Source: Caulobacter sp. | GTDB lineage: Bacteria > Pseudomonadota > Alphaproteobacteria > Caulobacterales > Caulobacteraceae | Assembly: GCA_021741355.1 (NCBI GenBank) | Contig: JAIOXZ010000003.1 | Span: forward strand, 62,001 to 126,000 | Length of the DNA stretch: 64,000 nt | Direction of reading: 5' to 3' | Part shown: positions 3,794 through 54,349 of the stretch, piece after piece | Layout: every line of letters starts with the position of its first letter | Numbering within the stretch: the first letter of the stretch is position 1 | The notes under the pieces: generated by a model | What the model was told of the DNA's origin: nothing | What the model saw: only the letters and a program-made list of their open reading frames with translations | Database searches by the model: none | Made by a program: the position numbers and the translations under genes

Positions 3794-5578
3794 CTAATCG
3801 TCACCGAGCAAAGCGGCGAGGGCGGCGGGCGGTTCCGCGCCTTCGAGGTGGATCAAGGACCATAGGGCGAAGAACATCAGCGGCCAGCGGTTGTGCGCCT
3901 GTTTCTCGTCCGTGAAGACCGCGCGGACGCCGTCGACGTCGCAGACCTCGGCCACGGCCTTCACCCCGGCGATGCGCGGGCCTAGTTCCCCGGCGCGCGG
4001 CGCAATCCAGCTGGCCACGGGCACGGTGAAGCCCTTCTTCTTCGCCCACGGCTCGGCGGCGGGGCAATGCCGCTCGAGCCACTTGCGCAGGATGTACTTG
4101 CCGTACTTCCCGCGCACCTTCATCCGGTCCGGCAGGTTGAACGCGAAAGCCGCGACCTCGCGGTCGAGGAACGGCGTGCGGCCCTCGAGCCCGTGCGCCA
4201 TCAGCATCCGGTCGAGCTTGAGCAGCAGGTCGTTCGGCAGCCAGGTGACAATGTCGGCGTACTGGGCGCGTTGGAGGGGGGAGTAGCCATTCGGCGCCTC
4301 GGCCCCTTTTCGCCAGCGGGCGAGAGCCCCTGCGCCCTTGTCCTTGAGGAAGGCTGCGTCGACCTGCGGCTCCGCAGGCCGCCCGCCAAGCCAGGTCGGC
4401 CGCATGGCCCTGCGGTATCGACCGTAGCCACCGAACAGCTCATCCCCGCCTTCGCCCGTAAGGATGACCGTCAGAGTGCCCTTGGCCGCCTCGGCGAGCT
4501 TGTAGGTGGGAAGAGCCGCATAGTCGGCCGTCGGGTCATCGAGCGCCCAGGCCACCTGCGGCGCTATCCGCCAGAAATCCGCCTCGCTGAAGGTCGTCTC
4601 GCGCCAGTCAAGGTTCAGCGCCTTTGCTACGCGCTCTGCCTGACCCCGTTCGTCGCGCGCCTCCGGGGCGTCAAATCCGCAGGTGTAGGCGGTGACAGGT
4701 CGCGCATTCAGGCGGGACATGATCGTGGCGATGGTTGCACTGTCCACACCACCGGACAGGAACAGGCCGTAGGGCACGTCCGAGCGCTGATGGACCTTCA
4801 CGCTGTCTTCCAGCACCCCGTCGAGCGCGGACAACAACGCTTCTTCCCCGCTCATCCCGGCGAAGGCCGGGACCCAGGTTTTTTTCTCTATGCCCGAGCC
4901 GAGGCGGCCTCCCTCAAAAACGCCTGGGTCCCGGCCTTCGCCGGGATGAGCGGATTGAGGGGAAATCTCCATCACGCTGCCGGGCGCCAACCGGCACGAG
5001 CCCAGCCCATGCGTCGCATAGCCATCATCGACCAGATAGTTCAGCGCGAGCAATTCGCGGTTTGGCATTTTTGGCCACACAGTGCTGGCGGCGAATGCCC
5101 GCGGCTCCGAAGCAAAGGCTACTTCGTCGGCGCGATCTCCCTGCCGATAGTACAGCGGCTTGATCCCGAACCCGTCCCTGACCAGCCACGTCCGCCCGTC
5201 GCAGCCGATGAAGCAGAACGCATACATCCCGCGCAGCCGCTCGAAGGCCTTCTCGCCTTCCAGCGCGTAAATGTGCAGCAGGGGTTCGAAGTCCGAGCCG
5301 GTCGAGAGCTTGTCCCGCAGCCCGAACTCCTCGGCCAGCTCCAGATAGTTGTAGATCTCGCCGTTGCCGATGACCGTCGAGCCGGCTGCGTGCAGGGGCT
5401 GCCAGCCGCCTTCGAGGTCGATGATCGACAGCCGCGCGTGGGCCACGCACCAGCCAGGGCCGCTCTCCACCTGAATGCCGTTCGGCCCGCGATGGGCGAT
5501 GCGCTCGATCATCGCCCGCACGTCGCGCTCGGCCTGCGCCGGGTCGGTGACCCCCAGAATGCCCGCGATGCCGCACAT
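3794..5578 (-). CDS. asnB: Asparagine synthase (glutamine-hydrolysing)
   Basis: [10 protein letters not shown]-terminal nucleophile Cys2; [47 protein letters not shown]. Its ATG overlaps the upstream stop by 1 nt (TGATG). Confidence 0.9.
4849..4952. repeat. Palindromic element inside asnB, family B
   Basis: 30-nt perfect inverted repeat cgctcatcccggcgaaggccgggacccagg (4849-4878) / cctgggtcccggccttcgccgggatgagcg (4923-4952), 44-nt spacer. Confidence 0.95.
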
Positions 5579-6606
5579 CAGCCTTCACCCAGGCGGGAGA
5601 ACAGGCTGCGCCATTCGGCGACCACGGCGTCCTGCGAAAACTCCGCCTCGACCCGTGCGTGACCGTTCTGGATCAGCCGGATGCCGAGCATCGGATCGGC
5701 CAGCAGCGCCCGCGTCCGCTCCGCCAGGGCGTCGGCGTCATCGACGTGGACCAGGAAGCCGTCCTGGCCGTCGCGGATCAGCGCGCCCGGTCCCTGGCTG
5801 TTGGCGGCGACGACCGGCAGGCCGTTGGCCCAGGCCTGGATGACCACGTTGCCCAGCGGCTCGAACCGCGAGGGAAACAGGCAGACGTCCGCCGCGCGAT
5901 AGAGGGCCGAGGCGTCCTGCCGCCAGCCGAGGAACCGCACGCGGTCGGCGACGCCCAGGGCGCCGGCCATGGCCTTCAGCTTGTCCTCCAGCGGCCCGGC
6001 CCCGGCGATCCAGAGGTAGGCGCCGGGGATCTGCGTCAGCGCCTTGAGGCTCACGTCGTGCGCCTTGGCGTCGTGCAACCGGCCCATGCCGAGCAGCAGC
6101 GGGACGCCTTCCGGCGTGTCCAGGCTGGCCCGGCTGACCGGCGCGTCCTCGTCCGGCCCGCCGGCGAAGTTGGGGATGTAGCTGACGCGATCGGCCGGCC
6201 AGCCCTGGGCGATCACCCAGCTGACGATGTCGCGCGTGTTGCCGACCAGATGGTCGAAGCCGCGGTAGTATTTCAGGCTGTAGTAGCCGCCCAGCCGGCC
6301 GATCCGCTTCCACGGGCCGGCGGGCGTGTGCCGGCCCGCCCGGTTCATCCAGGCGACGATCACCCGGGCGTCCATCCGCCGGCCCCAGGTGGCGATCCGC
6401 GGCCGGGTGAAGAGGTCCAGCGGGCCGCCGAAGCCGAAGGTCTGCGAGACGACGCCGGCCTCGGCCAGGGCGGTCGTCCGGGCGGCGTGACGGCGGATCG
6501 CGCATGCCTCCGCCACCCCCGCGCGATGCAGGGCCGTGACGAGGTCGACGAAGTAGGTCTCGGCGCCGCCGTCGCCCCCGGACCCGAGCAGATGAAGCAC
6601 GCTCAT
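5578..6606 (-). CDS. Glycosyltransferase, group 1/GT4-like
   Basis: MSVLHLLGSGGDGGAETYFVDLV; LLGMGRLHDAKAHDVSLKAL; VCLFPSRFEPLGNVVIQAWANGLPVVAANSQGP. Confidence 0.88.
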   Translation of the reverse strand: MSVLHLLGSGGDGGAETYFVDLVTALHRAGVAEACAIRRHAARTTALAEAGVVSQTFGFGGPLDLFTRPRIATWGRRMDARVIVAWMNRAGRHTPAGPWKRIGRLGGYYSLKYYRGFDHLVGNTRDIVSWVIAQGWPADRVSYIPNFAGGPDEDAPVSRASLDTPEGVPLLLGMGRLHDAKAHDVSLKALTQIPGAYLWIAGAGPLEDKLKAMAGALGVADRVRFLGWRQDASALYRAADVCLFPSRFEPLGNVVIQAWANGLPVVAANSQGPGALIRDGQDGFLVHVDDADALAERTRALLADPMLGIRLIQNGHARVEAEFSQDAVVAEWRSLFSRLGEG

Positions 6607-13480: not shown

Positions 13481-13508
13481 GGCCAAGCCTGAAGTCTATC
13501 CAAACCGG

Positions 13509-13632
13509 CGTCATGGCCCGACTTGTTCGGGCCATCCATGCGCGGTGAGGCGAATATCCGGCCCGCTGAGGGTCAACGTCTCACCGTCCAGGACCGTGTT
13601 CATGGGTGGCCCGAACAAGTCGGACCATGACG
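13509..13632. repeat. Palindromic intergenic repeat, family C
   Basis: cgtcatggcccgacttgttcgggccatccatg (13509-13540) versus the reverse complement of 13601-13632; 30/32 match. Confidence 0.85.
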
Positions 13633-13692
13633 GACTTTTTGAAAGGTGGGACATCCGGCCTGCGCCATCGCAGAGCTGAAGGTCGATCCGCT

Positions 13693-15971: not shown

Positions 15972-16071
15972 GGGGACTGTTCTAGCTGTCCCTTGGGACT
16001 GCTTGAACTGTCCCCGTTGTGCAGCAAGGGGACAGGCTATCCAGTCCCAAGGGACAGGAAAGCCAGTCCCC
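15972..16071. repeat. Composite GGGGAC palindrome, family D
   Basis: 44-nt arms 15972-16015 and 16028-16071, conserved blocks ggggactg / ctgtcccttgggactg / ctgtcccc flanking two divergent 6-nt patches. Confidence 0.85.
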
Positions 16072-17122: not shown

Positions 17123-17241
17123 CTGTCATCCCGGCCGCAGCGCGGAGCGCGAAGAGCCGGGACCCAGATTCGCCCTCACGCGCCACGGATGGGATTCGAT
17201 CTGGGTCCCGGATCGTCCCTTCGGGCCGTCCGGGATGACAG
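17123..17241. repeat. Palindromic repeat related to family B
   Basis: ctgtcatcccgg...gggacccagat ... atctgggtcccgg...ccgggatgacag. Confidence 0.8.
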
Positions 17242-39992: not shown

Positions 39993-40435
39993 CTCTGGCC
40001 GGAAAGGGGCGCGCACTGACGCGCATGTGCATGTTCTCCAGCCTCAACACGCTGAAATTTCTCAGGTCCTGGCGCGATACGCCACAGCGCAGAACAATCT
40101 GCGCCTCACCCCCACAGCCCGCGCCCATACTCACGCCATCCCCGCCGCACGGGGAGGGCGCAAAGGCCTTGCGACCTTGCGGCGGCGGGGAGGATGTTCG
40201 AGCGGACGCTCATCGGGACTTCCAGCAACAGGGAAGCCCGCCCGCCGGGCCCGCGTCGGCTAAGCCTCAACAGGGCTGCCTACCGACGCTCCCGCCAAAA
40301 CGGACATCGCGGAGCGTACCGGACTGCCGCAAGCCTGCCCTGCACCACCCTCTCGCACCCGGCGACAGCCGGGCCGCTCCGCACCCCCTCCCCACCTTCA
40401 GCTGGAAGCAGCGTGAAGCGGCAAAGCCGTGCGCC

Positions 40436-40514
40436 GGGGACATGTACCGCAGGTACGTGTCCCCTAAACTGCAGCCGCTCGATTGGGGGACACCTACCTG
40501 CGGTACATGTCCCC
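40436..40514. repeat. Mirror-image pair of family D hairpins
   Basis: ggggacatgtaccgcaggtacgtgtcccc (40436-40464) and the reverse complement of 40486-40514 agree at 28/29 positions. Confidence 0.85.
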
Positions 40515-40534
40515 GAACTCCCCCGCCCAACGAA

Positions 40535-54189: not shown

Positions 54190-54224
54190 AGGGCGAAAGT
54201 AGGGAAGGGGAGGGGCGCGTGCAA

Positions 54225-54346
54225 TGCGTGGTGCGTCCTTCGAGACGCTCGCTTGAGGCTCGCTCCTCAGGATGACATCGAGGGGGTCTTCAAAGATGTC
54301 CGTCATGGTGAGGAGCGATCCCTCGGGATCGCGTCTCGAACCACGC
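54225..54346. repeat. Palindromic intergenic repeat, family A copy 2
   Basis: tgcgtggtgcgtccttcgagacg...ctcctcaggatgac ... gtcatggtgaggagcg...cgtctcgaaccacgc. Confidence 0.85.
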
Positions 54347-54349
54347 AAC

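Follow-up and report, generated by a model that had tools for sequence, protein, structure and literature searches.

A palindromic segment that is read in frame through the asparagine synthetase gene asnB of a Caulobacter genome is explained, with a probability that we put at about 0.68, as a short mobile palindrome in non-autonomous form, repeats of this kind being mobilised by a GIY-YIG nuclease. Since longer copies of the same repeat family enclose a GIY-YIG gene, this nuclease is the strongest candidate to date for the missing machinery that disperses CGTC-type repeats. CGTC-tagged REPs form one of the two large REP super-families and are a very common class of bacterial repeat.

A REP-type dimer inside asnB

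In the window, by which we mean the whole 64,000-nt stretch of DNA analysed, asnB lies on the minus strand at 3794..5578 and encodes a 594-aa protein of the asparagine synthase (glutamine-hydrolysing) type, which exceeds the TIGR01536 asn_synth_AEB cut-off in a profile search. The palindrome occupies 4848..4953 (106 nt, minus strand) and is a REP dimer, a head-to-head pair of CGTC-1-type hairpins, which contributes 36 in-frame residues (209-244) flanked by the GATase_7 and Asn_synthase domains, one on each side. An inverted-repeat search places its perfect 31-nt arms, CCGCTCATCCCGGCGAAGGCCGGGACCCAGG, at 4848-4878 and 4923-4953, and these extend to 38 nt at 95% identity when the T/A tracts are included; the sequence-only reading had recognised the palindrome and given its peptide correctly, but had set its limits one base short at each end, as a 104-nt element at 4849-4952 with 30-nt arms. 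The first arm (4848..4878) forms one hairpin unit, made up of the tag GCTC, the stem halves ATCCCGGC and GCCGGGAC around a GAAG loop, and the tail CCA, and the second (4923..4953) is its perfect 31-nt reverse complement. The spacer between them (4879..4922) has a T tract at its start and an A tract at its end, matching that of the nuclease-bearing copy L137 described below, and spacers vary among the genomic copies. When folded as RNA, the palindrome strand reaches -84.8 kcal/mol, against -45.4 +/- 4.0 for shuffled sequences (z -9.75; equalled by 0 of 200 shuffles). The palindrome also yields near-identical arm peptides (10 letters each) on either strand and is crossed, together with asnB, by an antisense ORF of 531 aa (4067-5662) that we take to be spurious. 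Comparison of the hairpin with Rfam returned microRNA matches only, all sub-threshold, which were dismissed as chance.

Alignment of asnB orthologues reveals that the interdomain segment is hypervariable and that most orthologues are without the insert. Among close relatives, a dimer occupies this position of asnB in G011, G025 and G028 and is absent from G034 and L043. An inverted repeat scoring at least 13 was found in 16 of 76 asnB linkers, as compared with 2 of 760 windows of equal size from other parts of these genes (p 6e-16). These palindromes are of at least two unrelated kinds, CGTC-type dimers and elements with CCTCCCC...GGGGAGG arms, and on a tree built without the linker each kind requires at least 3-4 changes. 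The sisters L016 and L018 have differing palindromes in the linker, and L041 has a different REP subfamily there, its sister L013 being insert-free. Members of the CCTCCCC/GGGGAGG family, often with GGGGGACCG, stand in frame in the AsnB linker of other Caulobacterales (L018, L055, L070, L072, L075, L088, L092 and L103). In an AlphaFold2 model of AsnB (mean pLDDT 85.8), residues 208-234, which make up most of the insert, score below 50, and the linker holding the insert is presumably flexible and disordered. Because in-frame palindromes recur at this position and the insert is disordered in the model, we read the AsnB linker as a tolerant joint that has been filled repeatedly by in-frame palindromes.

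The identity of the asnB segment as a REP-type dimer that entered in frame is near certain and, because the phase of insertion keeps the frame open, we presume that it is translated and that the protein tolerates it. The sequence-only reading had proposed just such a protein-tolerated insertion, and is borne out by the absence of the segment from most close homologues, by its position in a low-confidence, presumably flexible part of the model and by the many copies of the repeat in the genome; the contrary outcomes that it had named, a peptide conserved in distant genera or a frame break, did not appear. An alternative account, in which the insert is functional in AsnB and retained for the sake of the protein or for an mRNA hairpin that adjusts translation, is very improbable. 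Such a role would agree with a reading frame that is open in all insert-bearing orthologues despite several different arm sequences, with the very stable fold predicted for the mRNA hairpin and with four spacer codons that differ only synonymously between the window and G011. It is hard to reconcile with an insert that most orthologues lack, with sister pairs whose linkers contain either unrelated palindromes or no palindrome, with the predicted disorder of that linker and with changes between G025 and G028 that are mostly replacements. Over the whole insert, the window and G011 are separated by 5 synonymous and 2 replacement codon changes (one compensated base pair), and G025 and G028 by 1 synonymous and 5 replacement changes; judged from these codons, purifying selection on the insert is not clear.

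The repeat family and its relatives

This Caulobacter genome contains about 25 inverted pairs of TCATCCCGGCGAAGGCCGGGACCCA, nearly all of them head-to-head and in most cases separated by a spacer of a few tens of bases. A reading of their flanks leaves asnB as the only clear intragenic case; long ORFs that cross other dimers in this genome were not counted, since Pfam found no domain spanning the element in them. The count of copies suggested in the sequence-only reading thus gives about 25 dimers, with a fraction inside ORFs that appears low.

Di Nocera et al. (2013; PMC3733652) included Neisseria dRS3 and R. conorii RPE-6 in the CGTC-1 family, listed C. crescentus among CGTC-positive species and recorded in-frame intragenic copies, which they suggested are tolerated by flexible linkers. 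The asnB-type repeat resembles CGTC-1 REPs in its 8-bp stem and 4-nt loop (ATCCCGGC / GAAG / GCCGGGAC in nearly all copies), its CCA tail, its head-to-head dimers, its alphaproteobacterial host and its distribution, mostly intergenic with some in-frame intragenic copies. It differs in the first stem pair, which is A.C in the dimers, and in the terminal tag, which is GCTC (CCGCTC in the asnB subfamily) instead of CGTC, TGTC or CCTC; moreover, the copies here are tied to a GIY-YIG gene, whereas the CGTC repeats were reported to be without association to transposase genes (PMC3733652). Because of this tag, the asnB repeat is described as a CGTC-type variant rather than a strict CGTC-1 member; the CGTC tag itself is present in other subfamilies that flank related GIY-YIG genes. 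The analogy with the Rickettsia RPE that had been drawn from the sequence is apt, because RPE-6 is filed in the CGTC-1 family, the type that the asnB element resembles (PMC3733652). In common with RPE, the asnB insert is a short palindrome lying in frame inside a conserved protein; host and sequence differ, and RPE-6 is nearest by published family, not by alignment.

A second CGTC-type dimer (GTCATCCCGGCC...GCCGGGACCCA), which is intergenic and belongs to another subfamily, occupies 17125..17239, with tagged hairpins at 17125-17166 (plus) and 17202-17239 (minus). The palindrome previously placed at 17123-17241 as a relative of the asnB element is therefore real and related, but the kinship is limited by the different subfamily and the imperfect arms. 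Similar arms flank GIY-YIG genes in other Caulobacter genomes (L172, L177, L218, L220 and L222). A third CGTC-type dimer lies at 13496..13645 and consists of GTCATGGCCCGACTTGTTCGGGCCATCCA (13510-13538) and its inverted partner. Elsewhere in the window, long inverted repeats at 2450-2562 and 54224-54347, 83-85% alike (GTCATCCTGAGGAGCGATCC...), apparently represent another CGTC-like family, and palindromes ending GGGGAC...GTCCCC at 15972-16071 and 40435-40515 are of a repeat type unrelated to CGTC hairpins. The spacer of the dimer L136 (1496-1623) contains GGGTTCGAATCCCACTCTCTCCGCCA, which resembles the 3' end of a tRNA gene; a tRNA fragment was rejected as its identity, ARAGORN finding no tRNA.

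REP/REPIN systems with RAYT (the REPtron) likewise comprise dispersed non-autonomous palindromic dimers and a cognate enzyme gene, which has those palindromes on its flanks. Here, however, the tag is another one and the cognate enzyme is of the GIY-YIG nuclease and not of the Y1 HUH transposase type; a profile search of this genome for Y1/RAYT transposases (PF01797) returned no match, and hence no REP-flanked Y1 transposase gene, the control genomes giving matches. RAYT is ruled out as the mobiliser of the asnB-type repeats, its gene being absent from the genome.

GIY-YIG genes between repeat arms

In the two longest genomic copies, L137 (354 nt) and L138 (475 nt), arms of each copy's own variant, with a GAAG or a GAAT loop, surround an intact GIY-YIG ORF. 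The product, of 94 aa, matches PF01541 (E 2e-15 in a profile search), retains the conserved catalytic residues of the family (Y6, Y17, G19, R27, E64 and N83) and is modelled with a pLDDT of 96, its closest PDB match being UPF0213 1zg2, followed by Slx1; the fold and the catalytic Tyr, Arg, Glu and Asn of a GIY-YIG nuclease are all present. Introns and phages are known to harbour selfish GIY-YIG genes. The present protein has the fold and catalytic residues of GIY-YIG homing endonucleases and of UPF0213/Slx1-like nucleases, but unlike them it is a stand-alone 94-aa minimal domain that is bounded by REP arms, multicopy and accompanied by deletion derivatives.

To determine how widely the gene and the arms occur together, the 250-nt flanks of relatives of the L137 gene were compared in Caulobacter (71 loci), in a class-wide draw (49) and in a draw across the phylum Pseudomonadota (46). 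An inverted repeat scoring at least 18 surrounds the gene at 43 of the 71, 18 of the 49 and 28 of the 46 loci, 89 of 166 in total, and at 13 of the 27 loci outside the Alphaproteobacteria; the corresponding controls were 0 of 150 displaced windows and 1 of 497 other gene boundaries (Fisher p about 2e-62, for loci that come partly from related genomes and are not fully independent). With either a tagged hairpin or such an inverted repeat, the counts become 60/71, 34/49 and 37/46, and detectable arms or a tagged hairpin are absent at about 15-30% of loci. The flanking arms have many different stems and keep the CGTC...CCA outline. Their similarity tracks that of the GIY-YIG proteins (Mantel r 0.48, p 0.0005), the sharing of arms increasing from 0.07 to 0.67 as protein identity rises. 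In Azospirillum lipoferum 4B (NC_016623.1) the GIY-YIG gene AZOLI_RS22735 (L353 889-1182) is situated between sufB and sufC and has a REP dimer to either side, and REP-bracketed GIY-YIG genes are also found in records of Neisseria gonorrhoeae, Novosphingobium aromaticivorans and Shinella; the bracketing match is a short one in S. meliloti, and R. tumorigenes and Photobacterium show hairpins on one side only. Matching arms around a nuclease were not found in some REP-rich genomes, for example G002, G009 and G014. An association of CGTC-type REPs with this GIY-YIG family is strongly supported. In the open-licence papers searched, which do not settle priority, we found no earlier report of this association. 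A 2006 survey (PMC1564403) described an HsdR protein of Methylococcus whose middle had recently acquired a GIY-YIG domain, which would fit a mobile GIY-YIG gene.

A different origin of the association would be that old repeats were amplified by replication slippage or host repair and that the nuclease is a host repair enzyme (UPF0213/Slx1-like) which merely resides in REP-rich intergenic DNA. The predicted fold is indeed nearest to UPF0213 and to Slx1, a branched-DNA nuclease, and prokaryotic relatives have been predicted to act in double-strand break repair (PMC1564403). We nevertheless consider this improbable, given that tagged hairpins occurred on both sides of none of the 497 gene boundaries at the same loci, that the gene separates sufB from sufC in Azospirillum, and that a housekeeping gene would not typically occur in several scattered copies per genome, with remnants and at non-orthologous positions.

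Derivatives of nuclease-bearing copies occur alongside them. A second subfamily in the same genome (TCATCCTCGCGGAAGCGAGGACCCAGG) includes L151, with an intact nuclease gene, and six or more copies in which intact arms enclose truncated nuclease remnants, mainly retaining the C-terminal part (L347-L350, L144 and L147). As in bacterial MITEs, these elements of about 100 nt have terminal inverted repeats and internal-deletion derivatives share them with coding parents, here L137, L138 and L151; in contrast to MITEs, the ends are hairpins, no regular target-site duplication is apparent and the parent encodes a GIY-YIG nuclease, not a transposase. Two nuclease-bearing copies of the second subfamily, L212 and L216, adjoin another repeat of about 100 nt that has dozens of partial matches in related genomes.

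The orthologous sites of the dimers L126b, L136, L128 and L124 are clean and hairpin-free in sister species. Direct repeats at the dimer ends are not consistent (11 nt at L136, 3 nt at L126b and none clear elsewhere). G011 has a solo hairpin at the sites orthologous to L137, L138 and L132, with a matching loop variant for L137 and L138. At the L137 site, three related species are in three different states, G025 (C54:149103-149128, L340) having a solo hairpin of a different stem (CCTCGCGAAAGCGAGG). A joined-flank search for empty sites of the nuclease-bearing copies met flanks that are themselves repeated, and no empty site was resolved.

These comparisons bear on the main rival explanation, which we judge unlikely, namely that the GIY-YIG genes are homing-type parasites that entered pre-existing REP hairpins, the REPs spreading by other means and the asnB dimer being unrelated in origin to the nuclease. 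The solo hairpins, with their matching loop variants, at the orthologous sites of two nuclease-bearing copies are as homing would predict, co-evolution with the target would also produce the correlation between arms and protein, and REPs are described as insertion targets of IS elements (PMC1525189). Yet the solo sites are explained equally well by deletion between the 7-nt direct repeats GCCGGGA as by insertion into a solo hairpin, and the many copies that retain both arms around a decayed nuclease are expected of deletion derivatives. Moreover, the dimers themselves move, because the sites of two nuclease-free dimers (L126b and L136) are clean, without a hairpin, in sister species.

The arms within asnB vary with lineage. 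Both arms have stems of the CCCGGC type in G000 and G011 and of the CCCCGC type in G025 and G028, and these types agree with the arms seen in L154 and L155, two nuclease-bearing copies. In the genomes with listed matches (G000, G011 and G028), the asnB arm type is also the dominant first-type variant of its own genome. Between the window and G011, the asnB arms differ by one base pair that is altered on both sides, from C-G to A-T, with the replacements H to N and M to I. Such lineage-matched changes would be consistent with replacement or copying from REP to REP or with hairpin-templated correction, without proving either.

A candidate engine for CGTC-type repeats

That the GIY-YIG nuclease moves CGTC-type REPs is likely, and we envisage the following route. 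The full-length element would be a gene for an endonuclease of about 94 aa enclosed by the same arms as the dimers. The nuclease may recognise its own REP hairpin, whether as double-stranded palindrome, cruciform or single-stranded hairpin, and cut the REP or target sites, whereupon cell repair would copy the arms and the intervening DNA into the broken site. Internal deletion, in a MITE-like manner, would give rise to short dimers, the asnB copy among them, which would spread in trans, and the same nuclease activity could homogenise arms within a genome. In asnB, a dimer would have entered the hypervariable, disordered linker in a phase that preserves the frame.

More broadly, we think it somewhat probable that CGTC-tagged REPs, from RPE-6 to dRS3, are non-autonomous forms of an unrecognised class of mobile element whose sole gene is a stand-alone GIY-YIG nuclease; as part of the same reading, this class would amount to a REPtron driven by a branched-DNA-type nuclease, not a transposase. 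The taxon-wide and statistically strong link to a nuclease makes a question that has been open for more than 10 years directly testable, by confronting the nuclease with its own REP. Neither this cognate nuclease nor the repeated use made of the one AsnB linker had been recognised in the sequence-only reading. If true, the proposed mechanism would account for the abundance and scatter of orphan GIY-YIG genes and would provide a source for in-frame protein insertions such as that in asnB, and the AsnB linker, with its several uptakes of palindromes of at least two unrelated kinds, offers a natural model for the absorption of mobile DNA by proteins.
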